Positions 8,463-31,857 of a stretch of DNA of 64,000 nucleotides are shown in pieces; within the stretch, counting starts at the first letter, position 1; every line of letters begins with the position of its first letter. The notes beneath the pieces were generated by a model. That model worked only from the letters and a program-made list of their open reading frames with translations, made no database searches and was not told the DNA's origin. A program made the position numbers and the translations under genes. Origin of the DNA: Rhodospirillaceae bacterium (GTDB lineage: Bacteria; Pseudomonadota; Alphaproteobacteria; Rhodospirillales; JABHCV01); NCBI GenBank assembly GCA_018662005.1, contig JABJHA010000012.1, positions 1-64,000 of the forward strand, written 5' to 3'.

Positions 8463-8463
8463 C

Positions 8464-9330
8464 TCAGGTGGCTCTGCCAAAAAGGCCCTGTGGCCGCCAC
8501 AACAAAACCAGCGCCATCAGGGCGTAAATCACCATGGATGAAAATTCCGGCACCAGTACCTTACCAAAGGTATCGGCCAGGCCGACCAGCATGGCCCCGA
8601 CGAAGGCACCCTTTACCGAACCAATGCCGCCAATGACGATAACAACGAATGAAATAATGAGAATGTAATTTCCCATGCCCGGATAAACCGAGCTGAGCGG
8701 CGCGTCGATCATGCCCGAAAATCCGGCCAGCGCCGCACCCAGACTGAACACAACGGCGAAAACACGACTGATGTTGATTCCCAGCGCCTGCGCCATTTCC
8801 CGATTGCTGGCCCCGGCCCTGATCATCATGCCCAGCTTGGTCTTGCCGATAACCACATACATACCGGCGGCGACAACCATACAAACCAACGAAACAAACA
8901 GCCTGTAGACCGGGTATTCCTGATTGCCCATGGGAATGGAACCGGACAGGACTTCCGGGATCGGCACGCTGTAGAAATCACTTCCCCACAGGATTTTCTG
9001 CATTTCATTGAGGATCAAAATCAGGCCGTAAGTCATCAACACCTGATAAAGGTGATCACGTTTGTAGAGGACGGAAATCGCCAGCCGTTCGATTGCGTAT
9101 CCGAAAACAAACATGATCGGGATTCCGGCCATAATGGCGATCAACAACGAGTCCGTAATGCCGAACAGCCAGAAACAGATGTAGGCGCCGATCATATAAA
9201 ACGCGCCGTGGGCAAGATTGATAATGCCCATGATGCCAAAAATCAGAGTCAGGCCACTGGCGACGAGAAAAAGGGTAAATCCGTACTGGACCCCGTTTAA
9301 AACCTGAATAAGAAAAGTGACAAAATCCAT
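8464..9330 (-). CDS. livH: branched-chain amino acid-type ABC transporter permease LivH
   Basis: 288 residues with the LivH family pattern: N-terminal FLIQVLNGVQYGFTLFLVAS, GIMGIINLAHGAFYMIGAY, and the conserved loop ASNREMAQALGINISRVFAVVF followed by GIGSVKGAFVGA. Eight or so transmembrane segments are visible. It is the first transporter gene after the binding protein, separated from it by 97 bp that contain an intrinsic terminator. This gene and the three downstream are therefore likely expressed at a lower level than the binding protein. Confidence 0.9.
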   Translation of the reverse strand: MDFVTFLIQVLNGVQYGFTLFLVASGLTLIFGIMGIINLAHGAFYMIGAYICFWLFGITDSLLIAIMAGIPIMFVFGYAIERLAISVLYKRDHLYQVLMTYGLILILNEMQKILWGSDFYSVPIPEVLSGSIPMGNQEYPVYRLFVSLVCMVVAAGMYVVIGKTKLGMMIRAGASNREMAQALGINISRVFAVVFSLGAALAGFSGMIDAPLSSVYPGMGNYILIISFVVIVIGGIGSVKGAFVGAMLVGLADTFGKVLVPEFSSMVIYALMALVLLWRPQGLFGRAT

Positions 9331-9356
9331 CGTATCAGCGTGTTCAGTTTATTAAG

Positions 9357-9404
9357 AAAAAAAGAACCCCGGGCCCAGTCATAACAGACCGCGCACCGGG
9401 GTTC
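9357..9404 (-). terminator. intrinsic terminator/attenuator between binding protein and livH
   Basis: On the minus strand a perfect 9-bp stem (GAACCCCGG at 9404-9396 pairing with 9372-9364) is followed immediately by seven T residues (9363-9357). This is a textbook Rho-independent terminator, placed within the operon 24 bases downstream of the binding-protein stop codon. Partial read-through would give many copies of the periplasmic protein per membrane complex. A smaller stem (GCCTG/CAGGC, 9405-9421) sits just before it. Confidence 0.8.
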
Positions 9405-9427
9405 GCCTGTTTTTTCAGGCAAGGTCC

Positions 9428-10636
9428 TTAGGTCATTTTGCAACCAGCTGCAGGATCTTCCAGAGCTTCAGCGGCAATGCCGAGAAGTTTCTGCTGACCA
9501 TCAGCAACCTGACGCAGATAGATGTTCTGGATCGGGTTATGAGCCTTCGACATGGCCCACGGACCACGCGGACTGTCAGGCACCTTCGATGTTTCCATCA
9601 CACTAATGACATCGGCTGTTGCTTCGACGTCGCCACCAACAGCGGCAGCAGCCTGCAACAGAAGCGATCCGGTGTCATAACCCTGAACCGAGAACACGTT
9701 CGGGCCGGAGCCGAAAGCGGCTTCGTAATCGGCACGGAACTTGTGATTTTCCCGGTTGTCCAGGTTTGAGGCATAGTGAAGGGTGGTCTTGATACCATCC
9801 GCTGCGGAACCGGCGGCTTTTTCCACGCCTTCGGTCAGGAAGCCCGGACCATAGAGCGGAATTTTGTCTTTAAGCCCTGCTGCTTCGTAGTCTTTCAGGA
9901 ACTTGGTAGCGCCACCGCCAGAGAAGAAGGCAAACACGCAATCAGGCTTCAGGGCGGCGATTTCAGACAAATGGGCCTGGAATTCAACGTTCGGGAACGG
10001 CAGCAGAATATCCTTTACGGATTTGCCGCCCGTTGTCGCAAAACCGTCACGACCGGCAGCCATCATCTGGATACCGGCGCCGTATTTCCATGAAATGGTG
10101 ACGCAGGTCTTATGACCTTCCTTGCCCATCAACACGCCGCCCGGATAGGCCGGCTGCCAGTTGGAGAACGAGGTGCGGAAGATGTTGGGCGCGCAAAGCG
10201 GGCCGGTCACGGCGTTGGAACCGGCATTGGGCACGATCATGATCGGTGTTTTGCGTTGACCCATAATTTTAGCCATGGCCGCGGCAATACCCGAATGAAC
10301 GGGGCCGACCAGGAAATCCACTTTTTCCTTCAGGATCAGCTTGTTGGTGTTTTGTGGTGCTTTGGGAACCGACATTTCGCTATCGACGGCAACATAGTCA
10401 ATGGGACGTCCGCCCATTCTGCCACCCGCCTGCTCGATACGCATTTTCATGGCGTTGGTGATCGAATTACCAAGCATCGCGTATGTACCCGAATAGGGAA
10501 GCAGAATACCAATCTTGATCGGGGCCGTCGCACCAATGGCAAAACGGCTTGGAATAAAGCTGCTCGCCGCTACCAGACCGGTTGTCGCCGCTGCGCCGGC
10601 AATAAAATTGCGCCTTGATTTGTTATTTTTACTCAT
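9428..10636 (-). CDS. ABC transporter substrate-binding protein, aromatic acid type, Tat-exported
   Basis: 402 residues with a twin-arginine signal (SRRNFIAG, residues 7-14) and a hydrophobic Ala-rich stretch, then a type I periplasmic-binding fold of the Leu/Ile/Val family (PIKIGILLPYSGTYAMLGNS, later DFLVGPVHSGIAAAMAKI and GYDTGSLLLQAA). It would capture the substrate for LivHMGF. Its position just downstream of the CoA-transferase, ligase and box genes points to benzoate or a hydroxybenzoate. GGGAG lies about nine bases before the ATG. The 130-bp gap upstream could hold its own promoter, though nothing definite is seen there. Confidence 0.88.
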   Translation of the reverse strand: MSKNNKSRRNFIAGAAATTGLVAASSFIPSRFAIGATAPIKIGILLPYSGTYAMLGNSITNAMKMRIEQAGGRMGGRPIDYVAVDSEMSVPKAPQNTNKLILKEKVDFLVGPVHSGIAAAMAKIMGQRKTPIMIVPNAGSNAVTGPLCAPNIFRTSFSNWQPAYPGGVLMGKEGHKTCVTISWKYGAGIQMMAAGRDGFATTGGKSVKDILLPFPNVEFQAHLSEIAALKPDCVFAFFSGGGATKFLKDYEAAGLKDKIPLYGPGFLTEGVEKAAGSAADGIKTTLHYASNLDNRENHKFRADYEAAFGSGPNVFSVQGYDTGSLLLQAAAAVGGDVEATADVISVMETSKVPDSPRGPWAMSKAHNPIQNIYLRQVADGQQKLLGIAAEALEDPAAGCKMT

Positions 10637-10766: not shown

Positions 10767-11522
10767 TTATCGCCAAAAACCTTCCTTATCAATTTCGTGA
10801 AGCGCCGCCATTTCTTCAGCGCTGGGCGGCGGTGTTTCGATCATTTTCGGCGAAACTTTCAAATCCCAGCCGGTTTTTTCCTGAACTTCCTCGACGCTGT
10901 GGCCCTGGTGGAGCGAGGCCAAATGCATCTCGTTATCCGGTCCGTAGGGCCTGAGAATGGCTAAATCCGTAATGATTGCCGATGGACCGCCCTGAAGACC
11001 TGCGCGGTCTCTACTGTCGCCGCCATCCAAATAACCCGGCGAGGTCACGTAATCGACCTTTTCGACCAGGCGGCGTTCTTCATGGTTGATAATAACCAGT
11101 AATCGCTTCGACATGGCTGCAATATCCGCTGCACCGCCAGAGCCCGGTAATTTGATCTTTGGATTGTTATAATCACCGATGTAGGACGTGTTCACATTGC
11201 CGAAGCGATCAACTTCCGCCCCGCCAATAAACCCGGCGTCGACCCGGCCACGCGTAAGCTGGCTCATCACCGGGATCAAGCCGGTGGTCCAGGCGGCGTT
11301 CAACTGGTTGGGCGGATCACCCATGGTATAGAGCATATCGGTAGCAGGGGCGTAGCGGGCAACGCCGCACTCAAACAGGCCGACGGCGTCCGGCGCATGG
11401 GTCAACCGCGCGACTCCGTAAGCGGTGATCGGCAGGCGCATACCGACAAAAACCAGCTCACCATCCTGAATTTCGCGGGCTGAAGCGATAATCATCAGTT
11501 CCTGAATGGAATAATCAGTCAT
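10767..11522 (-). CDS. CoA-transferase beta subunit, GctB/CatJ/IpdB type
   Basis: 251 residues of the glutaconate CoA-transferase-like family, beta subunit. The motif GLFECGVARYAP contains Glu51, at the place where the catalytic glutamate sits in GctB-type enzymes. Gly-rich IGGAEVDRFGNVN and LPGSGGAADIAA are also family features. It starts three bases after the alpha-subunit stop. Known relatives transfer CoA to glutaconate or 3-oxoadipate (CatIJ) or open rings by hydrolysis (IpdAB in steroid degradation). In a box operon a role on 3-oxoadipate/3-oxoadipyl-CoA or on an unsaturated dicarboxylic acid is plausible. The substrate is unproven. Confidence 0.82.
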   Translation of the reverse strand: MTDYSIQELMIIASAREIQDGELVFVGMRLPITAYGVARLTHAPDAVGLFECGVARYAPATDMLYTMGDPPNQLNAAWTTGLIPVMSQLTRGRVDAGFIGGAEVDRFGNVNTSYIGDYNNPKIKLPGSGGAADIAAMSKRLLVIINHEERRLVEKVDYVTSPGYLDGGDSRDRAGLQGGPSAIITDLAILRPYGPDNEMHLASLHQGHSVEEVQEKTGWDLKVSPKMIETPPPSAEEMAALHEIDKEGFWR

Positions 11523-11525
11523 TCC

Positions 11526-12449
11526 TTACCCCGCCGCGTAGTTTGTTGGAGCGGCCAGGTTTGAACCGGTGATGCGCAGGTCTTCCAGTTGGGAGCCCAG
11601 TTTTTGACAGTACGCGGCGTGATCTTCAACCCCGAAAATCCATTCCTGCAGCCACTTATCGAAGCCTTCAACAGTTCGGCTTTCGGCGTGATAGTCGCCA
11701 AAAAACGTATTATCGCGCTTCCAGCAACCGGTTTGCGGTGACGGATGGGAAGCGGCAGGCACATGGCACACGGCGCTAACCAGATAACCCGGCACCAGAA
11801 CCCTGCTGGGGTCAGAAGCAATGACGGCGGGTTCGACAATTTCATTGGCCAGCACGATGACGTTTTCGGCAGCCAGGGCGGCTTCCTGAACGACCCCCCG
11901 GCTTCCCCAATGATGGTTATTGCCAAACACATCGGCGCGCTGAACCACGATAATGGCAACATCGGGCACCAACGGCGGCACCAGAATGATCGGTTCCTTG
12001 TCCTCAGAAAACGGGTTCTCAGTGATCATCATATCTGGATTTGATTTGCTGATGTCGGATCCCAAAATCGAACGCATGGGTGCGTAGGGCATACCGTAAG
12101 CCCCGGCCATCAAGGCCATGGCGATGGAAAAGTTTGAATGATCGTGCAGTTTGACCGTCGCTGTGTCGCTGGCCTCGAAGGCCCGTCGATAGTTATGACC
12201 CAGGCCACCCGAAACATTGCCGACCCAGGCTCCGGTCACCTCGTTACAGCATCCCGCACCGATCAGCATGTCCGTAGAAGCGTCTGAAATCGGTGCGATG
12301 ACGTTTAAGCCCTTGATCCCCTGACGGATAATCTCGTGGGTTGCGGCAAACGGCACATCAGGTTCCAAAACCGCGCCCAGAACCACCGAACTGTCCGCGA
12401 CAACAAAGCGGGCGATGGCATCTTTCAGGGGAAGGATTTTTTCCTTCAT
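11526..12449 (-). CDS. CoA-transferase alpha subunit, GctA/CatI/IpdA type
   Basis: 307 residues with the GctA-like pattern: DSSVVLGAVLEPDVPFAATHEIIRQG at the N-terminus, GCCNEVTGAWVGNVSGGLGHNYRRA, and GNNHHWGSRGVVQEAALAAENVIV. It overlaps the ligase gene upstream by four bases (ATGA) and precedes the beta subunit by three bases, so all three are translationally linked. The length (307 and 251) excludes the shorter PcaI/PcaJ family. Both CatIJ-type 3-oxoadipate CoA-transferase and IpdAB-type hydrolase remain possible. Confidence 0.82.
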   Translation of the reverse strand: MKEKILPLKDAIARFVVADSSVVLGAVLEPDVPFAATHEIIRQGIKGLNVIAPISDASTDMLIGAGCCNEVTGAWVGNVSGGLGHNYRRAFEASDTATVKLHDHSNFSIAMALMAGAYGMPYAPMRSILGSDISKSNPDMMITENPFSEDKEPIILVPPLVPDVAIIVVQRADVFGNNHHWGSRGVVQEAALAAENVIVLANEIVEPAVIASDPSRVLVPGYLVSAVCHVPAASHPSPQTGCWKRDNTFFGDYHAESRTVEGFDKWLQEWIFGVEDHAAYCQKLGSQLEDLRITGSNLAAPTNYAAG

Positions 12450-14014
12450 GAACGCAACTTGAAGCGCTGAATTTTGCCGGTCGCCGTTTTCGGCAGGTCT
12501 TCAACAAAATTAAACCAGCGCGGATATTTATATTTGGCAAGCCCCTCTTTGCAGTGTGCCAGTAATTCGGCGGACAAGGCGTCACCGGCGTCACCGGCGT
12601 CGTTGAGCACAACAAAGGCTTCCGGCTTGATCAGATTATCCGCATCAGCGCGACCGACCACGGCACTTTCCAGAACCTTGGGATGTTCGATCAATTTGGC
12701 CTCGATCTCGAAGGGCGAACACCAGATGCCACCGACTTTCAGCATGTCATCATTGCGACCGCAGTAGTGATAGTAGCCGTCTTCATCAAGAATGTACGTG
12801 TCACCCGTATCAAGCCATCCATCGACCATGGTCTCAGCGGATTTTTCCGGGTTGTTCCAGTAGTACTTGGCTGTCGAGCCACCGCGAATGATCAAACGGC
12901 CACTGTCGCCAACCGGTACATCTTCCCGGTTCTCATCAATAATTCTGGCCTCATAGCCGGGCACGACCCGGCCACTGGTTCCCGGATTGTAATCATCAAG
13001 AATGTTTGAGATAAAAATATGCAAAATCTCGGTCGAACCGATACCATCAAGAATGACAGTGCCGGTTTTTTCCTGCCAGCGGCGGAAAATATCGGCGGGC
13101 AAAGCCTCCCCGGCCGAGACACAGGCCCTGAGCGAGGACAAGTCCCTATCCTCTGTTTCAAGCGCCCTTAATTGCGCCGCGTACAAAGTCGGGACGCCAT
13201 AATAAACCGTCGGTTTGAATTTTTCGATGACGTCGAAGGTACTGTCAGGTGTTGGCGGACCAGGTAGCAGAACCGTCGACGCGCCAAGCCACAGCGGGAA
13301 TGTCATGCCATTGCCGAGACCGTAAGCAAAGAACAGTTTGGCCGCCGAGAAGCAAACATCATCTTCTTTCAGGCCCAGCATATTGGCGGCGTAGTGCTCG
13401 CTGGTTTCAACCATGTCCCTGTGCGCATGGACAGCCCCCTTGGGGGTGCCGGTGGTGCCTGATGAATAGAGCCAGAAACAATCATCATCAGCGCTGGCCG
13501 GTGCCGCCTCCAAAGCGTCCGAAGCATCCGCCATCAGTTCGGTTAATGCGTCCGTCAAAAAAGCCTGACCCGGCTTGCGCGATGCATTTTCCAGCGCCGG
13601 TTCGACCTCAGCGGCAAATTCCGGCGAATAGAGGAGCCCAACGCAACCGGAATCCTCGATCATGAACTGATAGTCCTTGGCCTTAAGCAGGGTGTTAATG
13701 GGAACCGGAACAATCCCTGCCTTAATAGCGCCCCAAAACCCGTAGAAGAATTCCGGGCAGTCCTTGACCATCATCAGCATCCGCTCACCCTTGCCAAGGC
13801 CAAGTCCCAACAAGGCGTTGCCGGCCCGATTGACGTTTTCGGCCAGGGCCGCGTAGGTGACCGTGTCACCTGCGGCGCTGCGGATCATAATTTTATCGGC
13901 GCGGCCTTCTTCAAGATGCCGGTCGATAAAGGACGGCGCCACATTGAACGTCGGCGCATACGTTATCGTCGCCGGTGTCGTTGATTTATCTATGGAGACT
14001 GTATGATCACGCAT
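12446..14014 (-). CDS. bclA: benzoate-CoA ligase
   Basis: 522 residues, AMP-forming acyl-CoA synthetase. Visible motifs are the P-loop-like YSSGTTGTPKGAVH near residue 190, GIGSTEILHIFISN near 335, the hinge region YHYCGRNDDMLKVGG, and the C-terminal catalytic lysine region KTATGKIQRFKLR. The N-terminal part (FNVAPSFIDRHLEEGRADK, CPEFFYGFWGAIKAGIVPVPINTLL) matches BadA/BclA benzoate-CoA ligases. It converts benzoate, ATP and CoA to benzoyl-CoA, AMP and PPi and feeds both Box and Bcr pathways. It lies 11 bp downstream of boxB. In R. palustris such ligases are switched off by lysine acetylation; the KIQRFK lysine is present. 2-Fluoro- or aminobenzoate activity cannot be excluded. Confidence 0.92.
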   Translation of the reverse strand: MRDHTVSIDKSTTPATITYAPTFNVAPSFIDRHLEEGRADKIMIRSAAGDTVTYAALAENVNRAGNALLGLGLGKGERMLMMVKDCPEFFYGFWGAIKAGIVPVPINTLLKAKDYQFMIEDSGCVGLLYSPEFAAEVEPALENASRKPGQAFLTDALTELMADASDALEAAPASADDDCFWLYSSGTTGTPKGAVHAHRDMVETSEHYAANMLGLKEDDVCFSAAKLFFAYGLGNGMTFPLWLGASTVLLPGPPTPDSTFDVIEKFKPTVYYGVPTLYAAQLRALETEDRDLSSLRACVSAGEALPADIFRRWQEKTGTVILDGIGSTEILHIFISNILDDYNPGTSGRVVPGYEARIIDENREDVPVGDSGRLIIRGGSTAKYYWNNPEKSAETMVDGWLDTGDTYILDEDGYYHYCGRNDDMLKVGGIWCSPFEIEAKLIEHPKVLESAVVGRADADNLIKPEAFVVLNDAGDAGDALSAELLAHCKEGLAKYKYPRWFNFVEDLPKTATGKIQRFKLRS

Positions 14015-14025: not shown

Positions 14026-15441
14026 TTAGTTAAAGCGGACGTATTCGAAATCTCCCGGTTGACCGTTGATGCCCTTGGCAGGCGGGGCGATCCAGGGAGC
14101 GTACTTGCCGGGCTCGGTGACGGCCTTCATCAAGGATGTAACGTATTCCCGATCAGCATCGGTTGGCAGCCACTGATCGTGCTGGTGGTCCCAATCGGCT
14201 TCGGTAATGATGCGCCCGTCCGGCGTCGCCTTGACCGTGGCAAACGACCCAATGCCGCGATGGAAAGCGCGGCTGGGCAGGGTAATTTTAAAATCGATAC
14301 CGGCCCCGGCAATAATCTTGTTCCACTTGTCAACACCGCGCTGGCAGTCATGGATATAATCATCGCGCAAACGCTCGTTGACCGCCGTCAGGGCGTTTTG
14401 ATCTGTGAAAATGATCCCCTCGCCCCTGACTTCGGCAACCTGATAAGGATTGTCACCCAGCAAATGGTCGTCGTCGATCTTGGTTTCCTGGTAACGACCC
14501 TTAAGGCCCATGGTGTAGTAGTTGGCGGCGTTGGTGGAAATTTCCTGCCCGAACAGATCGACCGATACGCTGAAATGGAAATTGACGTATTTCTGAATCG
14601 TCTCAAGGTCGATGCCGCCATGTTTCCTGACGTCGTCGGTCTTGTTTTCGGTCATTAACTGGCAGGCCCGGGCGATAACCCGGCCGACGCCGGTTTCGCC
14701 GACAAACATATGATGGGCTTCTTCGGTCAACATAAAACGACAGGTTCTTGATAGGGGGTCAAAACCGGATTCCGCCAATGAGGCGAGTTGATACTTGCCG
14801 TCCCGGTCGGTGAAGTAGGTGAACATGAAGAACGACAGCCAATCGGGCGTCTTCTCGTTAAAGGCTTCAAGAATGCGCGGTTTGTCGGGATCACCGGAAT
14901 GACGCTCCAACATGGCTTCCGCTTCCTCGCGACCATCGCGGCCAAAGTGGGCGTGCAGCAGGTAAACCATGGCCCACAGGTGACGGCCTTCTTCGACGTT
15001 GACCTGAAACAGGTTGCGCAGGTCATAAAGAGACGGACAGGTCAGGCCCAGATAGCGTTGCTGTTCGACCGAGGCCGGTTCCGTATCACCTTGCGTGACA
15101 ATCAGGCGGCGCAGTTCAGAACGGTATTCGCCGGGAATTTCCTGCCAGGCCGCCTCCCCCTTGTGAGCGCCAAAGTTGATCAGGCGGCCTTCCTCAGGCG
15201 GCGCAAGGAAGATACCCCAACGGTATTCAGGCATTTTGACATGCCCGTAATTGGCCCAGCCGCCGGGCTCCACACTGATCGCCGTGCGCAGGAAGACATC
15301 CATGTTCTGGCTTCCCTCAGGACCCAATTCGGCCCACCACTGCTGGTAACCCGGTTGCCATTTCTCCAACGCCCGTTGCAGGCGGCGGTCATCATTCAGG
15401 TTGACGTTGTTCGGGATCTTTTCCTGATAATCAATACTCAT
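14026..15441 (-). CDS. boxB: benzoyl-CoA 2,3-epoxidase BoxB
   Basis: 471 residues from ATG 15441 (the frame also has an upstream TTG that I reject). The protein matches BoxB, the di-iron subunit that inserts oxygen into benzoyl-CoA. Candidate carboxylate-bridged di-iron ligands are Glu121, Glu151 and His154 (EGRH), Asp212, Glu241 and His244 (EAHH); the spacing agrees, with a one-residue shift, with the ligand set known for Azoarcus evansii BoxB. It works in the cytoplasm and needs electrons from a reductase (BoxA), which is not in this window. It sits 21 bp after boxC and 11 bp before the ligase. Confidence 0.95.
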   Translation of the reverse strand: MSIDYQEKIPNNVNLNDDRRLQRALEKWQPGYQQWWAELGPEGSQNMDVFLRTAISVEPGGWANYGHVKMPEYRWGIFLAPPEEGRLINFGAHKGEAAWQEIPGEYRSELRRLIVTQGDTEPASVEQQRYLGLTCPSLYDLRNLFQVNVEEGRHLWAMVYLLHAHFGRDGREEAEAMLERHSGDPDKPRILEAFNEKTPDWLSFFMFTYFTDRDGKYQLASLAESGFDPLSRTCRFMLTEEAHHMFVGETGVGRVIARACQLMTENKTDDVRKHGGIDLETIQKYVNFHFSVSVDLFGQEISTNAANYYTMGLKGRYQETKIDDDHLLGDNPYQVAEVRGEGIIFTDQNALTAVNERLRDDYIHDCQRGVDKWNKIIAGAGIDFKITLPSRAFHRGIGSFATVKATPDGRIITEADWDHQHDQWLPTDADREYVTSLMKAVTEPGKYAPWIAPPAKGINGQPGDFEYVRFN

Positions 15442-15462
15442 CAATTTACTCTTTCAGCCTTG

Positions 15463-17112
15463 CTATACGCGCTTGTTGTCGTAGGACGCCTTCAACCCGG
15501 TTCCAAAACGCTTCAACGCGCCTTCTTCTCCTACCGCGTTTGGACGTTGGAATATCCAGTTCTGCCAGGCGCTCAAACGCCCAAAAATTTTCGTCTCAAG
15601 GGTTTCAGGACCGGCAAAACGCAGGCTTGCCTCCATACCGGTCAGGCAGTCAGGCGAGAAACTGGCCCGCTCTTCAATGGCGATGCGGACCTCGTCCTGC
15701 CAGTCGATATCGTCGGGGATAAACGTCACCAGACCTATCTCGTCAGCCGCCTCGGCGTCCAGATCGTTACCGCTTTCTGCACGCGCTGCGGCTAGCGCTT
15801 CCGCCTCGCCAAGGAAGCGGGTTTCAAGGCGGGTCAGGCCGTTGCACATGGGAAGGGGACCAAAGTTCATCGATCCCGGACGCACCGTTGCGGGTGCCCG
15901 GTTGTCGCCTTCAAAAACACCATCGAGCATAAAACTGCGATCGGCGACCAACAACAATTCCAGCAGGGTTCCGCTAAAGCAGCTTCCCGGCTCAACCAGT
16001 GAAATAAGACTGCGCGAAGTCACGTCAATGCGTTTGAACACCCGCTTCATATACAGCGTGATTTCACGAACCAGCCAGTCGTCTGCATGATCCAGAAGCG
16101 CCTTGTCGGCGGCATCAACCAGATCGGCCTCGCCACTGGTGGTGAAAACCCAGGTGCCGATTTCGGCCTCGTTGGTGCGCAAGTGCAGGATCGCGTCATC
16201 GAGTTCACGGGCCAACGCCAGTGGCCAGAATTCAACACCTTGAGCGTGAATGCCTTGCAGGTCCGAAGGGGGCGCAACCGGTGGCGCCGACACATTGATC
16301 ATGGCAACCTGATCGTCCCGAATAATTTGAATGCTGACATTGTCATAGGTGATGGCGTCTGCATCGATCTTGCGGTTCGGGGCTGTCAGTTCAATGCCCT
16401 TGGCGTCTTCGGGACGATCCGATTTTTCAGCAAATTCCAGGGCCCGCTTGCGGGTCGTTTCCTCAAGGCTTGAGCGCGGGACGATTTCATCGACCAGCTT
16501 CCACTGAACCGAGCGCTTGCCCTTGATGCCTTCGGTCAGGGTGCAGAAGAAATCCGCATGATCCCGGCGCACCATGCGTTTATCGACAACCCGGGTCAGG
16601 CCGCCGGTTCCCGGCAACACCGCCAGCAACGGGACCTCGGGCAGGGAAACCGCGCTTGAACCGTCATCAATGAGAATAATATGATCCGCCGCCAGCGCCA
16701 GCTCGTAGCCGCCACCCGCCGCCGTCCCATTAATGGAGCAGATATAGCTTTGAGCGGAATTTTCCGTCGCGTCTTCGATGCCGTTGCGGGTTTCATTGGT
16801 AAATTTGCAAAAGTTGACTTTTTCGGCGTGGCTGGAGCTGCCTAGCATGGTGATATTGGCACCGGAGCAAAAAACCCGGTCCTTTGCCGACGTGATCACA
16901 ACACAGCGCACTTCCGGGTGCTCAAACCGCAAACGCTGAACAGCGTCATACAGTTCAATGTCGACGCCCAGATCGTAAGAATTGAGTTTCAGTTTATAAT
17001 CGGGTTTAAGGCCACAGTCTTCATCCACATCCATGGTAAGGGTCGCCACGGGGCCGTCGAAAGACAATTTCCAGTGCTTGTACATATCGGGATGGGTGGT
17101 GAAATCGATCAT
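15463..17112 (-). CDS. boxC: 2,3-epoxybenzoyl-CoA dihydrolase BoxC
   Basis: 549 residues, a double-length member of the crotonase superfamily as expected for BoxC, which hydrolytically opens 2,3-epoxybenzoyl-CoA to 3,4-dehydroadipyl-CoA semialdehyde and formate. The N-terminal half carries the crotonase oxyanion region (RVFCSGANITML and NGTAAGGGYELALAADHI). It is the first gene of the box operon; its ATG faces the divergent GNAT/Rrf2 pair across a 139-bp gap that contains a palindrome. The C-terminal half is less typical of crotonases, as in the family. Confidence 0.95.
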   Translation of the reverse strand: MIDFTTHPDMYKHWKLSFDGPVATLTMDVDEDCGLKPDYKLKLNSYDLGVDIELYDAVQRLRFEHPEVRCVVITSAKDRVFCSGANITMLGSSSHAEKVNFCKFTNETRNGIEDATENSAQSYICSINGTAAGGGYELALAADHIILIDDGSSAVSLPEVPLLAVLPGTGGLTRVVDKRMVRRDHADFFCTLTEGIKGKRSVQWKLVDEIVPRSSLEETTRKRALEFAEKSDRPEDAKGIELTAPNRKIDADAITYDNVSIQIIRDDQVAMINVSAPPVAPPSDLQGIHAQGVEFWPLALARELDDAILHLRTNEAEIGTWVFTTSGEADLVDAADKALLDHADDWLVREITLYMKRVFKRIDVTSRSLISLVEPGSCFSGTLLELLLVADRSFMLDGVFEGDNRAPATVRPGSMNFGPLPMCNGLTRLETRFLGEAEALAAARAESGNDLDAEAADEIGLVTFIPDDIDWQDEVRIAIEERASFSPDCLTGMEASLRFAGPETLETKIFGRLSAWQNWIFQRPNAVGEEGALKRFGTGLKASYDNKRV

Positions 17113-17166
17113 TGTCGTTTATGGCTCTTTCTGCAGTGATATTTTTGGAATAAAGCCGTAAGGCTC

Positions 17167-17190
17167 AAATAGGTACCAAATTTCCTATTT
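17167..17190. promoter_or_regulatory. candidate operator in the box / GNAT-Rrf2 divergent promoter region
   Basis: A perfect 7-bp inverted repeat, AAATAGG at 17167-17173 and CCTATTT at 17184-17190, with a 10-bp AT-rich spacer. It sits between boxC (ATG 17112) and the acetyltransferase gene (ATG 17252), about 55 and 62 bp from the two starts, a place where a repressor could block both promoters. The Rrf2 regulator encoded next door is the likely binder. This is inference; I found no second copy upstream of the bcr operon. Confidence 0.45.
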
Positions 17191-17251
17191 ACATTTTGAT
17201 TTAGCCCCTCCATCCTGTCAAGGACGTTTAGAGCGTGGTCGGAGGAGAAAA

Positions 17252-17737
17252 ATGTCCACAGAGGCAGACCAAAATAATACCGCAGCTCACTATAGTATTC
17301 GCGGTGCCCGGGCGGCAGATATTGATGCGGTTACCGGCATCGACGCCAGCATCACAAATTTGAGCAAACCCGACTACTGGGCCGACATGTTTGCCCGCTA
17401 TGGAGACCGCGAAAACCGGTTTTTCCTGATCGCCGAAGATGAAAACGCGAACCTCATCGGCTTTATTATCGGCGAGGTTCGGACCTGGGAATTCGGCTCC
17501 CAACCCAGTGGCTGGGTCTTCGCCATTGGGGTTGATCCGGCGACCCGCCTTAATAAAGTCGGCACCACCCTTTTCGGGGCAATCTGTGACTGCCTAACCA
17601 AGGCCGGTGTTGATACGGTCCGCACCATGTTGGCCCGTGACGATGAACTGAACATGACATTTTTCAGGTCCCAAGGCATGATGGGCGGGCCGTTCATCCA
17701 GTTGGAAATGCCGCTCGGCGATGGCGGGGGGACTTAA
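17252..17737 (+). CDS. GNAT-family N-acetyltransferase, BadL-like
   Basis: 161 residues with a GNAT fold: the acetyl-CoA loop motif VFAIGVDPATRLNKVGTTLF near residues 89-108 (V-x-P-x-x-R-x-x-x-x-G variant), preceded by FFLIAEDENANLIGFIIGEV. A strong GGAGGAG precedes the ATG by four bases. The gene is followed after five bases by the Rrf2 regulator gene. In Rhodopseudomonas palustris a GNAT enzyme (BadL) acetylates aminobenzoates and the acetamidobenzoates release the Rrf2 repressor BadM from DNA. The same gene pair here suggests the same type of circuit, now next to box genes. A protein-acetylating role (for example on the ligase lysine) is the main alternative. Confidence 0.75.
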   Translation: MSTEADQNNTAAHYSIRGARAADIDAVTGIDASITNLSKPDYWADMFARYGDRENRFFLIAEDENANLIGFIIGEVRTWEFGSQPSGWVFAIGVDPATRLNKVGTTLFGAICDCLTKAGVDTVRTMLARDDELNMTFFRSQGMMGGPFIQLEMPLGDGGGT

Positions 17738-17742
17738 AGCCA

Positions 17743-18156
17743 ATGCGATTGCAAAAAGCAACCCAATGCGCCCTGTTCGCTGTGCTTGAGCTGGCAAAAG
17801 ATCCCGGGCATCAGATTTCCGCAGCCGACATTGCCGACAAATTCGGCATATCGGCCAACCATCTGGCCAAGGTGATGCGGGATCTTGCCCGGGCGCGTCT
17901 GGTAGAGTCCATGCGCGGCGCCGGGGGCGGCTACCGCTTCAGCGGCAACGCCAAGCGGGTCACCCTTTATGACATCGTCAACCTGTTTGAAGATATCGAT
18001 ACCCATGATGCAGGGTTCCCGCAAACCGGCGAGGAAGCCGACATCGGCCTCGCCCTGAACAGGGTGATGACAGAAATCGAGGAAATCGCCGTTTCCACCC
18101 TGAAATCGATCACCCTGACGACCCTGTTGAAGCAAATGGAACGGCCGTCCCTATAA
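17743..18156 (+). CDS. Rrf2-family transcriptional regulator, BadM-like, without Fe-S cysteines
   Basis: 137 residues with the Rrf2 winged helix: MRLQKATQCALFAVLELAK, HTH ISAADIADKFGISANHLAKVMRDLARARL, and wing GAGGGYRFSGNAKRVTLYDIV. The three clustered cysteines near residues 90-105 that hold the Fe-S cluster in IscR, NsrR and RirA are missing; Cys9 is the only cysteine. This agrees with BadM of R. palustris, a repressor of benzoate genes that responds to a small aromatic ligand rather than to a cluster. It is the second gene of a two-gene unit with the GNAT and divergent from the box operon, which it probably represses. Confidence 0.82.
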   Translation: MRLQKATQCALFAVLELAKDPGHQISAADIADKFGISANHLAKVMRDLARARLVESMRGAGGGYRFSGNAKRVTLYDIVNLFEDIDTHDAGFPQTGEEADIGLALNRVMTEIEEIAVSTLKSITLTTLLKQMERPSL

Positions 18157-19555: not shown

Positions 19556-20161
19556 TCAGGTCGCCACTGCTTTGCGACCAGCCTCAAACGCCTGCTCATT
19601 CAGGGCCACCAGTTCCGGCTTGCGGGTTTTGAAGCGGACCACCATCTGCTCCTGCAAATGCCTGGCTTCAAAGGGAAGATGGTCGGCGACCGCCCCCAGC
19701 ATGACAGTGTTGCCAAGGCGCATATCGCCCAGGCTTTTGGCGATTTCGCCGGCATCGAAATCATGAACCTGGCAATTGGATTTGCGGATTTCACCAATAG
19801 GATCGTCCGGATAATCGAAAATACCAACCGACACAATGGGCGGCGTGATGCGCATGGTGTTGACCAGTGCGACGCCGCCGGGGCGAAGCTGGGCGATGGC
19901 CCGCATGGCCTCCGCCGGTTCAAAGCCAAGCAGGATATCGGCCTCGCCCGAGGGAATGGAAGGCGACATCACCTGTTCGCCGAAACGAACGTGGGAAGTG
20001 ACCACACCGCCACGTTGCGACATCCCGGAAACCTCCGTCTTTTTGGTGTCAAAACCCAAGGAAATCGCCGTCTGGGCGAGAATTTCGGCGGCCGTCATGA
20101 CGCCCTGTCCGCCGACCCCGCAGACCAGAATGTTGATGATGTCATTTCGATTGCCGGTCAT
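19556..20161 (-). CDS. iorB: indolepyruvate:ferredoxin oxidoreductase beta subunit IorB
   Basis: 201 residues from ATG 20161; an upstream in-frame start would run into iorA and gives a non-conserved leader. The protein is the gamma-domain type subunit of 2-oxoacid:ferredoxin oxidoreductases (INILVCGVGGQGVMTAAEIL, EVSGMSQRGGVVTSHVRFG). With IorA it oxidises aryl pyruvates (indolepyruvate, phenylpyruvate) to aryl-acetyl-CoA and CO2 and reduces ferredoxin. It follows iorA by 16 bp. Inside a bcr operon its ferredoxin output could feed benzoyl-CoA reductase. Confidence 0.9.
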   Translation of the reverse strand: MTGNRNDIINILVCGVGGQGVMTAAEILAQTAISLGFDTKKTEVSGMSQRGGVVTSHVRFGEQVMSPSIPSGEADILLGFEPAEAMRAIAQLRPGGVALVNTMRITPPIVSVGIFDYPDDPIGEIRKSNCQVHDFDAGEIAKSLGDMRLGNTVMLGAVADHLPFEARHLQEQMVVRFKTRKPELVALNEQAFEAGRKAVAT

Positions 20162-20177
20162 GACATAGTACCCACTA

Positions 20178-21998
20178 TCATAAAAGGACAATGGCGTCGG
20201 GCGCGCAGGTTTGCTGGCACAGGTCGCAGCCGGTACAGGCGGCGGTGTCAATCTGGACCCAGGCCTTGTCGACCGGGCGACCGGATTTGGACGTTTCAGT
20301 AGCCCGGCGGGTGACGCTGATGGCCGGGCAACCGAGCATCAGGCAGTTGGCGCAACCGGTGCACTTATCCTCGATAACCTTGAACGCCGGTTGACGCTCG
20401 AAGCGGTCAATCAGCACGCACGGCTGGTTGGTGATGATCACCGATGTTTCAGGTATGGCAATTTCCTGTTTTATCAGTTTGTACAGCGACGGCATTTCGT
20501 AGGGGTCGACCGTATGGATGCGCTTTGGATTGACTCCCAGCGCCTCGCACAATTTGCTGAAATCAACCTTGGGGGCGGCCTGGCCGTGAATGTCCTGGCC
20601 GGTGCCGGCGTGATTCTGGCCGCCGGTCATGCCGGTTGTCGAATTGTCGAGCAGCAGCACCGTCACGTTGCCCTGATTGTAATTCATCTCAAGCAAGCCC
20701 TGCATACCCATGTGCAGGAAGGTGGAATCACCGATCACCGACACAATGGCCTTGTTTTTGTCGGCCTCGACCCTGCCCAAATCCATGCCCAGGGCCATGC
20801 CCATGGAGGCCCCCATGGAGATGCAGGTATCCAGGGCCCGCCACGGGTGTCCGGCGCCCAGCGTGTAACAGCCGATATCCCCGACGATCGTCGCCTTCTT
20901 GGTTAGTTTGGACAGGCAATAATAAGGCGGCAGATGCGGACAGCCGACGCACATGGTTGGCGGGCGCGGGAAAACGCCTGGGTCTTCTCGCGTCTGCTGT
21001 GGTTGTTGGCCGCTTTGCAGGATGTCGACGCCTTTGCTTATGACATCGGGCTGCAACTCGCCGCAACGGGGCAGAATGTCCTTGCCATGGCAGTCTATGC
21101 CAGCCGCCTTCAAGGCGTTTTCGACCAGCGGTTCGGTTTCCTCGATAACCACCAGCTTTTCCACGGACGCGGCGAAGGCGCGGATTTTCTCCATGGGCAG
21201 GGGATGCGAGAAGCCGAGTTTGAGAACCGGGGCGTCGCCAAATACTTCGCGCACATGCATGAAGGCGGGCCCGGAAGCGACAAAGCCGAAGCGCCTGTCA
21301 TCGCCCTCGATAACCCGGTTCCACGATGTTTGTTCACTGAATTCGCTCAGTTGATCATCGCGCGCGAATTGGAACTTCTGGCGTTCCTTGGCGTGAGCTG
21401 GGACCATCACCCAATGGGCCGGGTCACGCTCGAAAGCCGCGCCGTCGTGCTCTACACGTTCGCCCAGTTGGACCAGTCCCTTGACATGGCAGATGCGGGT
21501 CGTCATGCGCACGATCACCGGGGTGATGAATTGTTCCGACACATCGAAGGCGTCCTTGATTATGTCGTGGGCTTCCTGGCTGTCGGAAGGCTCGAAAATC
21601 GGCAGGTGGGCGAAACGGCCCCAGTAGCGGGTATCCTGCTCGTTTTGGGATGATGAAAAACCCACATCGTCGGCCACTGCGATCACCAGTCCGCCGCCGA
21701 CACCGGCCAGGGTCAACGACATCAGGGCGTCGGCGGCGACGTTGACGCCGACATGCTTCATGGCGCAAAAGGCGCGGGAACCGGCGATGGAAGCGCCGAT
21801 GGCGACCTCCAGCGAGGTCTTTTCGTTGACCGACCAGTGGCTGTGAATATCGTCGTAGGTAGCCAGATTTTCCAAAATCTCCGTCGAGGGCGTTCCCGGA
21901 TAAGCGCAACCTACCCTGGCCCCGGCTTCCCAGACGCCGCGGGCGACGGCCTCGTTTCCCGACATCAGGACTTTTTGATCAGAAAGCGAATCGGGCAT
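20178..21998 (-). CDS. iorA: indolepyruvate:ferredoxin oxidoreductase alpha subunit IorA
   Basis: 606 residues, the usual length. N-terminal pyrimidine-type domain (GNEAVARGVWEAGARVGCAYPGTPSTEI), TPP-binding domain near residues 355-470 (CVGCPHLPPYYCLS, GDIGCYTLGAGHPW, GDSTFLHMG, DNSTTGMTGGQ), and a C-terminal ferredoxin domain with two clusters (CTGCANCLMLGCP and CTGCDLCQQTCAP). It starts six bases after the thiolase stop. This family oxidises aromatic 2-oxoacids. In denitrifying Aromatoleum an IorAB can make phenylacetyl-CoA from phenylpyruvate, so a link to phenylalanine degradation is possible. Confidence 0.92.
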   Translation of the reverse strand: MPDSLSDQKVLMSGNEAVARGVWEAGARVGCAYPGTPSTEILENLATYDDIHSHWSVNEKTSLEVAIGASIAGSRAFCAMKHVGVNVAADALMSLTLAGVGGGLVIAVADDVGFSSSQNEQDTRYWGRFAHLPIFEPSDSQEAHDIIKDAFDVSEQFITPVIVRMTTRICHVKGLVQLGERVEHDGAAFERDPAHWVMVPAHAKERQKFQFARDDQLSEFSEQTSWNRVIEGDDRRFGFVASGPAFMHVREVFGDAPVLKLGFSHPLPMEKIRAFAASVEKLVVIEETEPLVENALKAAGIDCHGKDILPRCGELQPDVISKGVDILQSGQQPQQTREDPGVFPRPPTMCVGCPHLPPYYCLSKLTKKATIVGDIGCYTLGAGHPWRALDTCISMGASMGMALGMDLGRVEADKNKAIVSVIGDSTFLHMGMQGLLEMNYNQGNVTVLLLDNSTTGMTGGQNHAGTGQDIHGQAAPKVDFSKLCEALGVNPKRIHTVDPYEMPSLYKLIKQEIAIPETSVIITNQPCVLIDRFERQPAFKVIEDKCTGCANCLMLGCPAISVTRRATETSKSGRPVDKAWVQIDTAACTGCDLCQQTCAPDAIVLL

Positions 21999-23236: not shown

Positions 23237-24088
23237 TCAGGATGCCAGTGGCAAGGCTCCGATCTTGGCTAGCTTCTCATGCCGGAAAGCACCCCATATT
23301 GCCGCACCGATAGCACCGGCGTAAATAGAATCCTCATGGCTCAAAGCTTCAACGGAGACTTTCTGGCCTTCCATTTCCTCGTTCAGGGCGGCAAGCAAGC
23401 CGGTATCGAGCGCCAAACCGCCGGTCATCAGGACCGTACCTTCCTTCATTTTAATGGCCCGGAGCAACTTAACCAGCCGTCCCGCCATGGACAGGTGAAT
23501 GCCTTTAAGAATATTTTGGGTCGAGACCTGACGCGAGACCATATTGATGACATCGGTTTCCGACAGAACCGCGCAGATTGAGGAGACTTTTTCCGGCGCG
23601 TCGGCAGCTTGCGAGAGGTCGCCGATTTCTTCCTGGGTGATGCCCAGATAACGGGCGATGTTTTCCAGAAACTGGCCGGAACCGGATGCACACTGCGAGG
23701 TCATACGGTAGTTCAGAACTTTGCCGCGCTCGTCAATAATAATGGCCCGACCGTGCAACGCCCCGACATCCAGAATGGCACCGGCGCGGGGTTCAAGATA
23801 GATGCCGCCGCGAGCGTGGGTGGTCATGGAATAGAAGTGGCCAGTGGTGAAATCAAGGCTTTCGGCTTCGCCTGTGGTCGCGATATAGGCGACATCTTCA
23901 AGCGCCGCCCCGGCTTCTTCAAGGGCATTATCGAAGGCTTCACGGGCCAGTCTGTGCGGGTCGCGCTGGCGGATTTTTTCGCATCGGCGGGAAAGCCATT
24001 TGATTTCGCCAGCACCACCATCCTGGACATCAAAAACGACCGCCTTAACGGCCCCTGTGCCAACATCGATTCCTGCGGTAATGGTCAT
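23237..24088 (-). CDS. bcrD: benzoyl-CoA reductase subunit D (ATPase subunit)
   Basis: 283 residues of the BcrAD/BadFG ATPase family (ASKHA fold): [16 protein letters not shown] at residues 5-20, and two cysteines, in [12 protein letters not shown] and [13 protein letters not shown], that would hold the [4Fe-4S] cluster shared with BcrA. BcrA and BcrD hydrolyse ATP to push electrons to the BcrBC active site. The 283-residue length fits BcrD of Thauera. It begins 14 bp after bcrA. Confidence 0.95.
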
Positions 24089-24102
24089 GGTGCTAAATCT
24101 CC

Positions 24103-25401
24103 TTAATGAATGACGGCGCGACGGGCGAATTCCGCAGCCCCAAGCGCGCCTGTGTAAATGGAGGTCGGGTCAATATTAATGGTCACTTCGCCGTAGTTTT
24201 CATTGACCAGCTTCTTCAATTCCTTGACCGCAGCGCCGTTGTTGGCGACGCCACCTGTGAAGGTAAACTCCCCTTCGTTGATGCCGCCGGAACGGGAAAT
24301 AATCGACATGGCGCGCAGAATGATAGCCCGGTGCAAACCGGCCAGAATGTCCTCGCGCTTCTCGCCAAGGGCCAGACGGTCCCGCAGTTCGGCCCCCGCA
24401 AACACCGTACAGGTTGAATTAATGCGCACGTTCTTGGTCGACTTCATGGCCATGGGCCCAAGTTCGTGCAGTCCCATATTCATTTCATCGGCGATGTAGC
24501 CAAGATAGCGGCCGCAACCGGCGGCACAGCGATCATTCATCTGAAAGTTTTCGACAATGCCCTCTGCGTCGACCTGAATGGCCTTGGTGTCCTGACCGCC
24601 GATATCCAGCACCGTGCGGGTATGCGGATACATCAAATGAGCACCCAGTCCGTGGCAGAGGATTTCAGAACGGATATGCTCTTTCGGAAACGGCAGTGTC
24701 ACCCTACCGTATCCGGTGCCGACGACGTAGGTTTCCTCAAGTTCCACATCAAGCGCTTTTGAAAGGGCAGTCTGAGCCAACTCCTCATCAATTTGAAATT
24801 CCGGCGATCCCTCAAGAAGCCTGTGCAAACCGGCACGGAATTTCTCGCCGAGGCCACCCTGGGGGGGGCGGTTTTCAACATCGATGATGGATTTGTCATA
24901 AAGGTTGAGCAGCGTGTCGAAGCTGACGCCGCGTTTCTTTGCCACTTCCTCGCCCAATTTCATCACCCGCGAACCTGCTATATCCCGAAAGAAATCAGAT
25001 TTTCGTTTGGCCTCGCGGGTAAACAGGGCCGGGCTTTCTTCCGCCAAACGGACGAACACTTCATCCAGCGCCTCTTTGATATCACTCGCGCCATCTTTTA
25101 TATGTGAGGCGCAGGTGTCATGAAGATCCTGCAATTGCTCCATGAACTGTTCGCAGCGGATCGAGCGTTCCAAGTCGGCCATCAACACATCGATGCCTTC
25201 CAGTTCCGTCAATTCAGTGAGGCCCCGACGGAACAGCGTCAGCCTTGCCCCCAGTCGCGCTTCCTGCTTGGCGACGGCGGCAGCGGTTTCATAGTTGGAG
25301 CGGGAATTGGTGATGCCACGGCCCAGAATGTCGGCCCCTTCGTCCATTAACACCGCCTTGGTGGTGGTCGAGCCCAAATCAATTCCGATATAACATTTCA
25401 T
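24103..25401 (-). CDS. bcrA: benzoyl-CoA reductase subunit A (ATPase subunit)
   Basis: 432 residues with ATP-binding [18 protein letters not shown] at residues 5-22, [16 protein letters not shown] in the second half, and cluster cysteines in [18 protein letters not shown] and [16 protein letters not shown]. The central insertion of about 150 residues separates BcrA from the shorter BcrD and from the Hgd activators. It couples two ATP per electron pair to reduction of benzoyl-CoA to cyclohexa-1,5-diene-1-carboxyl-CoA. It lies 12 bp after bcrB. Confidence 0.95.
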
Positions 25402-25413
25402 CGTTTTTGTCCT

Positions 25414-26721
25414 TTAAGCCGCCCGCGACGGAGAACCGCCAGCGCGCTTTTGATCGATCATCTGGAAATAACTTTCCAGCCGGTTCTTGACGTTGGCTGG
25501 CGAAAAATAGCGCGGGTCGACAAGATCCGTCTCGATGAAGGCGGCGGGCTTGCCGGTGCGGTTTTCAACCTCCCGCATCATCATCAACTGACCAGCCGAA
25601 AAACTGTTGCAGCTCTTGATCGAATTAATCAGGAAGCCGTCGGCCTGGTACTCTTCCATGGCCTGCTCGATCATGTCGACGCGCATGGGCAGGTTGCGAT
25701 TGGTGTAGCAACCCAGGCAGTAGTCGGCCAAACTTTCCAGCGGGTTTGCCGGGTCGTGACGGAAGCCGTCATAATCGTAAACGCCGCCAACCTTGGTATA
25801 AGTGCTGGAAACCACCACAGCGCCTTCATCGTAGAACATCTTCCAGAACTCGCGGAAGCTGGTCCAGTTGGGCGGGCCTTCAACGACGAGACGGTATTTT
25901 TCTTCCTTCATTTCGCCTTCCGGCGTAATCGGGCCCTGACCATTGGCGATGCGTTGTTCGATTTCGCCGCGCAGAATTTTGTAATAATCAATAGCGTCCG
26001 TGGTGCCGCGGAAGGCGGTGAAGATGGGACCGACATAATAGACGCCGCCGAAATAGGCATCGATGGGGGAAGGTTTATTCTTGGCGCTTTCCAGTACCCA
26101 GACGAAATCATCTTCGGCCTTGGCCGAGTTCGCCAAATTCTCGCGCAGCCGGTCAATATCGAATTTAACGCCGCTGACTTCCTCGAACGTCGGAATCACA
26201 TCTTCCTTCAACTGCTTGACCACGTAGTCACGCATATTCTTGGTGATGACGCCGTCACCTTCGTAAGGAACGTGCAGCATGGCGGTGCGACAACCGTACT
26301 GGTCGCGCAACAACTCGAACCATTTCAGGAACGTGAAACAACCCGTATAGGACAGCATCAGCAAGTCAGGCACCGGCATCGGTTTGCCGTTGGGCGCGAT
26401 GGCGCCTTTGGCCATATTGCCGATGTCGGCTTTTACATAAGTGCAGACATCTTCGGAATGGCCCATCTTTTCGGCGTCCTGGATCATGCCTCCCGATTTC
26501 TTGCGCATACCGTTCTGAATAGCGTTGATTTCAGGCAGGTTGTTGAGCATGTCAAAGCACATGATCAGTTCGTTCAGGTTGCCCGGAACATAAGTCGAAG
26601 CGACTTTTTGCCCGGTCTCAGGCGCACTGGTCAGTTTTTCGTAATTGGCCGCGATCATCTCCTTCTGCTTCAGCATCGAGGATTCTTTGATCACGTCTTC
26701 TTGAATGTCTGCGGGGCTCAT
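25414..26721 (-). CDS. bcrB: benzoyl-CoA reductase subunit B
   Basis: 435 residues of the 2-hydroxyacyl-CoA dehydratase/BcrBC family. Cluster-ligand cysteines are likely those in LSYTGCFTFLKWFE, LADYCLGCYTNRN and SIKSCNSFSAGQ. With BcrC it makes the active-site module where the ring accepts electrons. Its ATG overlaps the bcrC stop by four bases, so the pair is translationally coupled. The order C-B-A-D is that of Thauera aromatica. Confidence 0.95.
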   Translation of the reverse strand: MSPADIQEDVIKESSMLKQKEMIAANYEKLTSAPETGQKVASTYVPGNLNELIMCFDMLNNLPEINAIQNGMRKKSGGMIQDAEKMGHSEDVCTYVKADIGNMAKGAIAPNGKPMPVPDLLMLSYTGCFTFLKWFELLRDQYGCRTAMLHVPYEGDGVITKNMRDYVVKQLKEDVIPTFEEVSGVKFDIDRLRENLANSAKAEDDFVWVLESAKNKPSPIDAYFGGVYYVGPIFTAFRGTTDAIDYYKILRGEIEQRIANGQGPITPEGEMKEEKYRLVVEGPPNWTSFREFWKMFYDEGAVVVSSTYTKVGGVYDYDGFRHDPANPLESLADYCLGCYTNRNLPMRVDMIEQAMEEYQADGFLINSIKSCNSFSAGQLMMMREVENRTGKPAAFIETDLVDPRYFSPANVKNRLESYFQMIDQKRAGGSPSRAA

Positions 26722-27893: not shown

Positions 27894-28664
27894 TTAACTG
27901 TGGCTCCACTGGGGACTGCGCTTTTCGACGAAAGCCTTGAGACCTTCGTGCGCATCGTCGCTTTTCATCAAACCTTCAAGATAAAGGGCTTCGACCCGGT
28001 CAAGATCGGCACTGACGGATTCGGCAAAATTCTGGCGGGCTGCGGTCAGCGCAAAGCGCAGGGTGCTGGCCGACAGTCCGGCCAAGTGCTCATCGAAATA
28101 GGCAAGTGCCGCAGTTTCCGGATCTTCGTCAGCCTTCAGGGCGATACCCAGACGGACCGCCTCGTCACCGGAAATACTGCGCCCTGACAGAAGCATGTCT
28201 TCGGCGGCTTGCTGACCGGCCAGGCGCGGCAACAAACAACTGGCCGCTGGCGCAAAGACCGCGAGCTTGACTTCCGGTTGGCCGAGACTGGCACCCGGGG
28301 CGACAAACATCATGTTACCGGCCATCGCCACTTCAAGGCCGCCACCAAGGCATTGACCACCAACCGCGACCATTATGGGGGCCGGGCAAACAAGCATTTT
28401 CTTGATCAGGGAATGCAGGGCCCGCAACATTTCTGCACATTGATCGGGCATATGTTCTTCAACGCTGGCCCCGAAGCTGAAATGCGGGCCTTCGTGATCA
28501 AGCAGTACAGCGTGGACGTCAGGGTTTTCGATGACATCGCTGATGGCTGTGTCCAGAGCCACGATCATTTCGGCGTCGATGATGTTGGCTTTGGCCCGGT
28601 TCAGGCGTAGGCGCAGCAGCCTGTCATCCTTTTCTCGCCAGACTTTGAGCGCGCCCTCAGTCAT
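27894..28664 (-). CDS. dch: cyclohexa-1,5-diene-1-carboxyl-CoA hydratase
   Basis: 256 residues, crotonase fold (LLDHEGPHFSFGASVEEHMP, then VAVGGQCLGGGLEVAMAGNMM). The HFSFGASVEEH segment is typical of dienoyl-CoA hydratases of benzoyl-CoA clusters. It adds water to the dienoyl-CoA made by Bcr and gives 6-hydroxycyclohex-1-ene-1-carboxyl-CoA. It overlaps the end of oah by eight bases and precedes bcrC by three. A general enoyl-CoA hydratase is the alternative, but context makes Dch much more likely. Confidence 0.92.
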   Translation of the reverse strand: MTEGALKVWREKDDRLLRLRLNRAKANIIDAEMIVALDTAISDVIENPDVHAVLLDHEGPHFSFGASVEEHMPDQCAEMLRALHSLIKKMLVCPAPIMVAVGGQCLGGGLEVAMAGNMMFVAPGASLGQPEVKLAVFAPAASCLLPRLAGQQAAEDMLLSGRSISGDEAVRLGIALKADEDPETAALAYFDEHLAGLSASTLRFALTAARQNFAESVSADLDRVEALYLEGLMKSDDAHEGLKAFVEKRSPQWSHS

Positions 28665-29802: not shown

Positions 29803-29821
29803 GGTAATAACTCGCTTTTTT

Positions 29822-31843: not shown

Positions 31844-31857
31844 AACAGGAAACGGCG

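Follow-up and report, generated by a model that had tools for sequence, protein, structure and literature searches.

The benzoate regulators BadL and BadM of Rhodopseudomonas palustris, a GNAT acetyltransferase and an Rrf2 repressor, have been described by VanDrisse and Escalante-Semerena 2018 (PMC6191541) and, for BadM, by Peres and Harwood 2006 (as cited in PMC10803450). Acetylation of 2-, 3- and 4-aminobenzoate in vitro has been shown for the BadL homologues amb3392 (Magnetospirillum magneticum) and gmet_2096 (Geobacter metallireducens), each paired with a badM homologue (PMC6191541). The passages on BadM in PMC10803450 report it, for the Alphaproteobacteria, in anaerobic contexts only. The known repressor of the aerobic box genes, BoxR, is an XRE/shikimate-kinase protein (PMC6449761), and the BoxR/BzdR proteins of Azoarcus/Aromatoleum cross-regulate the aerobic box and the anaerobic bzd genes (Valderrama et al. 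2012, as cited in PMC6449761). Here, we analyzed a badL-badM pair adjoining boxC in a Rhodospirillaceae bacterium (assembly GCA_018662005.1; genome 96.5% complete), on a 64,000-nt stretch of contig JABJHA010000012.1, hereafter called the window.

As in R. palustris, the window combines adjacent orthologous GNAT and Rrf2 genes, a BadM with Cys9 as its only cysteine, and an operator-like site at the start of a benzoyl-CoA reductase operon. It differs in having an additional, stronger predicted site on the boxC promoter, and the same genome holds a third site at tandem GNAT genes and a 4-hydroxylaminobenzoate lyase gene, whereas the boxC promoter of R. palustris PS3 lacks such a site and BoxR is present. 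Like BoxR/BzdR, one regulator type would serve both routes, but BoxR/BzdR are unrelated to BadM (XRE helix-turn-helix plus shikimate kinase) and have a TGCA-repeat operator. The Rrf2 proteins IscR, CymR, NsrR, and RsrR share the fold and winged-helix DNA binding; however, IscR, NsrR, and RsrR bind Fe-S clusters via cysteines missing in the window BadM, and their regulons differ. We consider it likely that the window encodes an orthologous BadL/BadM circuit in which one BadM controls both benzoate routes. No report of BadM at box genes was found in the literature searched, which left out most subscription papers and does not prove that none exists.

Identity of the BadL and BadM orthologues

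The window badL (17252-17737, plus strand) encodes a predicted aminobenzoate N-acetyltransferase of 161 aa (PF00583, 8e-7, above the curated cut-off) and is followed, with 5 nt between its stop codon and the next ATG (17738-17742), by badM (17743-18156, plus strand), which encodes an Rrf2 repressor of 137 aa (PF02082, 5e-27; TIGR00738 above the cut-off). Both diverge, across an intergenic region of 139 bp, from boxC (15463-17112, minus strand), the gene for 2,3-epoxybenzoyl-CoA dihydrolase (TIGR03222, 921 bits, above the cut-off). The original prediction had described a GNAT and a single-cysteine Rrf2 gene in this arrangement, co-directional and five bases apart, and both the coordinates and the domains were confirmed.

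The window BadL is 49% identical to that of R. palustris PS3, whose cluster contains badDEFG, badA, badM, and badL, and 54-56% identical to the BadL of Magnetospirillum-type relatives, which stand in for the tested homologues; BadM is 57% identical to its PS3 counterpart. In a quick maximum-likelihood tree of 41 rows, BadL formed a clade with R. palustris and Magnetospirillum BadL (Shimodaira-Hasegawa approximate likelihood ratio test, SH-aLRT, 98), with the 15 other GNATs of its own genome outside. BadM, including that of R. palustris, was split from 11 other Rrf2 proteins with a branch support of 90. The phylogeny proposed in the original prediction thus turned out in favor of both assignments, and a grouping of the GNAT with general protein acetyltransferases was not found. 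The BadM orthologues are sharply bounded: 19 of 59 relatives have one with at least 52% identity, below which the matches drop to 30% (short segments up to 38%). Cys9 is the sole cysteine of BadM in the window as well as in R. palustris, and the three-cysteine Fe-S motif, which is present in the Rrf2 proteins of L003 (own genome), L025, and L032, is missing; the predicted lack of Fe-S ligands is borne out by this sequence, which speaks against an Fe-S Rrf2 protein.

AlphaFold models agree with these assignments at the level of the fold (BadL, predicted local distance difference test score 87, with GNAT fold matches; BadM, 89.5, with an IscR/CymR fold), while the substrate of the GNAT is not settled by structure, the best matches of BadL being diverse aminoglycoside, polyamine, and histone enzymes. 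Our comparison set comprised 80 orthologous badLM loci taken from genome contigs (L-numbers denote loci and G-numbers genomes). In all 80, the Rrf2 gene is immediately preceded by the GNAT gene, and the pairing is therefore far beyond chance. Judged by sequence, the window pair is orthologous to badL and badM. A scan of IMG/VR found no relatives, and a plasmid search gave one weak match only (46.6%, Agrobacterium).

Predicted BadM operators at the aerobic and anaerobic operons

A 26-bp palindrome with the consensus TAAATCGGTACCAAAATACCTATTTA lies between badL and the divergent gene in many loci. Using a weight matrix of 31 sites, none of them from the window's genus, exactly two strong sites were found in the 64 kb: operator 1, CAAATAGGTACCAAATTTCCTATTTA (17166-17191; 35.3 bits), 60 bp before badL and right after the predicted -10 element of boxC, and operator 2, TAATTACGCACCGTAATACGTATTTA (30956-30981; 30.7 bits), between had (minus strand) and sdr (plus strand). 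The third-best site scored 3.1 bits, and the best score in 2 Mb of Markov sequence was 11.6 bits. A second matrix, built solely from badL promoters outside box loci, recovered the same two sites (27.4 and 26.8 bits; third, 8.0), and the result is therefore independent of motif learning at box genes. Outside the known sites of the 80 loci, at least 12 bits were reached at 40 of 1.23 million positions; several of these represent second operators, located at bcr, sdr, or tandem-GNAT genes. With a wider matrix of 67 sites, none from Rhodopseudomonas, the highest-scoring site in 20 kb fell in the badC-badD intergenic region of all three Rhodopseudomonas genomes (21.4, 20.7, and 22.1 bits), with a runner-up at or below 0 bits. 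This palindrome falls inside the stretch from -191 to +21 of badD, and a probe of exactly this extent is bound by BadM in vitro (PMC6191541). The palindrome thus looks like the BadM operator, for which the overlap with the badD probe is the best evidence. That it is the site of another regulator common to the loci is unlikely, since it is kept 5' of badLM where box or bcr genes are lacking and is missing at both promoters of G030, a genome with box and bcr genes and no badM. Magnetospirillum-type genomes, in which neither bcr nor box genes were seen within 10 kb of the badLM pair, have their best operator match within the coding sequence of badL (L120:9683-9708, and at the same place in L121, L123, and L128).

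The operator is present in all 29 box-divergent loci among the 80, scoring no less than 32 bits. A comparison of the 29 box- and bcl-divergent loci showed, on the boxC strand, TTGACA (TTGACT in L072 and L113) at an almost constant distance ahead of the operator, which is itself immediately preceded by a -10-like hexamer. Because this distance is nearly fixed while that between operator and badL varies (about 59 to 168), the operator tracks the box promoter. The corresponding boxC promoter predicted by pattern scan in the window (17193-17221, minus strand) consists of TTGACA (17221-17216), a spacer of 17 nt, and CAAAAT (17198-17193); as 0.6 such matches are expected by chance in 400 bp, it is the conservation across loci of different genera that carries weight and not the single match. 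Furthermore, badLM and the operator lie beside box in four good genomes without detected bcr genes (G023, G034, G043, and G058). The suggestion in the original prediction that the pair controls the aerobic route as well is therefore well supported, in terms of a predicted BadM operator on the boxC promoter.

On the other side of badLM, which is placed between the aerobic and the anaerobic gene sets, lies a Thauera-type bcr operon that the original prediction did not mention. It extends on the minus strand from about 30.9 to about 19.5 kb, with its own promoter region near 30.92-30.98 kb, and begins with had-oah-dch for the lower anaerobic benzoyl-CoA steps (27894-30919; named by gene order and homology), followed by bcrCBAD for the ATP-dependent benzoyl-CoA reductase (23237-27890; TIGR02263, TIGR02260, TIGR02259, and TIGR02261, all above their cut-offs). 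In other BadM genomes for which the bcr promoter region is in the data, the operator is mostly located at the operon start, the first gene being had, oah, or bcrC; in G009, this holds even though bcr and badLM are on different contigs. The promoter elements around the operator are arranged differently at bcr starts than at boxC. No FNR/AadR-type site was detected near the window bcr operator by the pattern TTGA-N6-TCAA; for comparison, R. palustris carries TTGATCCGCATCAA before badD.

The known box repressor appears to be absent from this genome. It yielded only one shikimate-kinase (SKI) match, in a 198-aa frame presumed to be aroK, and no XRE plus shikimate-kinase protein of the BoxR/BzdR type was found by a search that did recover BoxR-type proteins in Rhodopseudomonas and G056. 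Among 21 genomes tested, a second strong SKI match in a long frame occurred only in three Rhodopseudomonas genomes and G056, and the two of these four proteins that were read were confirmed as helix-turn-helix plus SKI (301 and 304 aa). These four BoxR genomes are the BadM genomes without a BadM site at the box promoter, which instead contains TGCA repeats, whereas none of the 16 genomes with a BadM site at box has BoxR (Fisher p = 2e-4, uncorrected for kinship). We propose, on the strength of these patterns, that BadM has probably taken over from BoxR/BzdR in this lineage. In R. palustris PS3 and the two further Rhodopseudomonas genomes, boxC and boxB are found about 14 kb from badL (L221:14882-18198); their boxC promoters have the TGCA repeats, and the BoxR-type gene is far away.

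A third site, neighboring genes and other settings of the pair

The whole genome was searched with an IUPAC pattern allowing mismatches and not with the matrix, by which weak sites may be missed. This search revealed one further near-perfect site (contig C36:18187), which at 40.8 bits outscores the other predicted BadM operators of this genome. It lies between a tandem-GNAT operon and a divergent gene for a 4-hydroxylaminobenzoate lyase (PnbB; PF16155, 2e-47), in a region of about 17.1-18.8 kb on this contig (L188:3104-4792). The tandem GNATs are the closest kin of BadL in the tree. In many loci, such a pair or its fusion is encoded near badLM or bcr, in several of them with an operator directly 5'. 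Since the relative G003 keeps the site before the GNATs (26.2 bits) and has the lyase gene further off, the GNATs are the firmer members of the predicted regulon.

Within the window, boxC is followed on the minus strand by boxB for a benzoyl-CoA 2,3-epoxidase subunit (14026-15444; TIGR03225, 862 bits), a benzoate-CoA ligase gene 3' of boxB (12446-14014; TIGR02262, 624 bits; both above the cut-off), and genes for two CoA-transferase subunits (10767-12449; PF01144 on each). Open reading frames (ORFs) for a Liv-type ABC transporter, comprising a substrate-binding protein, two permeases, and two ATPases (6023-10636, minus strand), have an identical gene order in L053, L056, L058, and L071, and gene order and their shared direction with box lead us to infer that they are part of the box operon. 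BoxA was not found in the own genome (TIGR03224, best 41 bits versus a cut-off of 459); a different reductase probably serves the BoxB epoxidase, unless boxA is lacking from the assembly. Across operator 2, an SDR gene (PF13561) and 4-hydroxybenzoyl-CoA reductase-type genes (30985-35626, plus strand) diverge from bcr; hcrA and hcrB were named by ORF reading and are kept beside bcr in other loci. The clustering of neighboring ORFs was disturbed by spurious ORFs in GC-rich loci, and we relied on it for orientation on gene order only. The bcr gene run closes with alpha and beta genes of the indolepyruvate ferredoxin oxidoreductase type (19556-21998, minus strand), the products of which possibly supply the benzoyl-CoA reductase with reduced ferredoxin. 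Further away, genes for a Crp/Fnr-type regulator and an NnrS-like protein face each other (61974-63935; from translation reading only).

In Emcibacter-type loci (L093, L096, L102, L105, L114, and L115), DUF2249-, NnrS-, and hemerythrin-like genes and a fused double GNAT gene, as read from translations, adjoin badLM. This gene run has a predicted operator upstream and suggests a link of the circuit to nitrogen-oxide respiration.

Mechanism, rival explanations and meaning

At the level of sequence, a BadM that controls both routes is supported by the orthology, the operators, the promoter geometry, and the absence of BoxR. We infer protein-DNA binding, repression, and the effector, an acetamidobenzoate, the last by orthology with the characterized BadL/BadM (PMC6191541). 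BadM, lacking an Fe-S cluster, would bind the palindromes at operators 1 and 2; BadL would acetylate an aminobenzoate-type amine, the product of which would release BadM. The box, bcr, and badLM promoters would then open together, with badLM being autoregulated, and the choice of the working route would be set by other inputs such as oxygen.

Several observations weigh against this reading. Outside box contexts, only 29 of the 51 loci reach 12 bits upstream of badL. Some bcr loci have a weak site (L169, only 8.3 bits) or no good site (L229), and the rule of an operator at bcr is therefore not absolute. The BoxR contrast comes from four genomes, three of which belong to one genus, and G030 has neither BoxR nor BadM, which means that box can have other regulators. 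In Thalassospira- and Terasakiella-type genomes, badLM and an operator-like site 5' of badL are present, and box and bcr are siteless, mostly missing, or unlinked: the pair has no nearby box or bcr in L048, L049, L109, L117, and L132 (Thalassospira) or in L037, L040, and L066 (Terasakiella type), and no box or bcr genes were found in the whole genomes of G020, G033, G040, and G050. Benzoate is therefore not the only setting of the pair, and the circuit in these genomes either has another target or predates the benzoate role. Finally, BadM of R. palustris responded in vitro to 10 mM 2-acetamidobenzoate but not to 5 mM (PMC6191541), and the true effector may therefore differ.

The last point also favors an explanation in which box and bcr share BadM as their repressor, with another effector (benzoyl-CoA, benzoate, or a hydroxylamino- or other aryl amine); the role of BadL and the tandem GNATs would be to remove a toxic or interfering amine and not to make the inducer. 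The third operator, between two further GNAT genes and the lyase gene, fits this explanation, and the GNAT fold match is not substrate-specific. Nevertheless, we regard it as rather unlikely, since in R. palustris the deletion of badL blocks growth on benzoate, the deletion of badM suppresses this defect, and 4-acetamidobenzoate restores growth (PMC6191541), a logic that orthology makes likely for the window as well. It is still less probable that the targets of BadLM are confined to badLM and bcr, with the operator next to boxC serving badL alone and box being under another regulator. While an operator is found upstream of badL even where no box gene is adjacent, and box is unlinked to a BadM operator in R. 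palustris and G056, the nearly fixed spacing of the operator relative to the TTGACA promoter on the boxC strand, as opposed to its variable distance from badL, argues otherwise, as do the genomes that keep the operator at box without having bcr and the lack of BoxR in the own genome.

The original prediction had also raised the possibility of a switch between the two routes. The position of badLM between the two operons would suit a BadM that represses one route and favors the other, as would an operator placed after the -10 element at boxC when the promoter elements at bcr starts are differently arranged. However, matching palindromes at both promoters, with one regulator, predict the same sign, that is, co-derepression; BadM has no Fe-S cysteines for oxygen sensing; and in R. 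palustris, BadM is a repressor, with oxygen being sensed by Fix/AadR. The switch is thus not supported, and we deem it very improbable. A chance neighborhood of a general GNAT, acting as a protein acetyltransferase, with an Rrf2 regulator that is either of the Fe-S kind or unrelated is hardly credible: GNAT folds are alike, as the diversity of the structural matches illustrates, but the BadL clade excludes the other GNATs of the genome, BadM lacks the Fe-S cysteines, the pairing is invariant, and common operators are located at benzoate genes.

In R. palustris, the BadL/BadM circuit was characterized as anaerobic and photoheterotrophic; the prediction here is that it also gates the oxygen-dependent box route in genomes that lack BoxR. 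As a site for BadM binding, the predicted operator can be tested, and it lies within a DNA probe already known to bind. In a broader and more tentative view, which we would not yet favor, BadM may be a whole-pathway benzoate repressor that has replaced BoxR in a wide range of Alphaproteobacteria and ties both routes, three acetyltransferases, and the 4-hydroxylaminobenzoate lyase to a cell-made acetylated aminobenzoate signal, with aryl-amine acetylation as a general gate of benzoyl-CoA metabolism. With a predicted operator at both routes, the odd observation that acetylated aminobenzoates act as inducers would become a question testable across many genomes, namely why aryl-amine acetylation should control the entry of benzoate into both of them.
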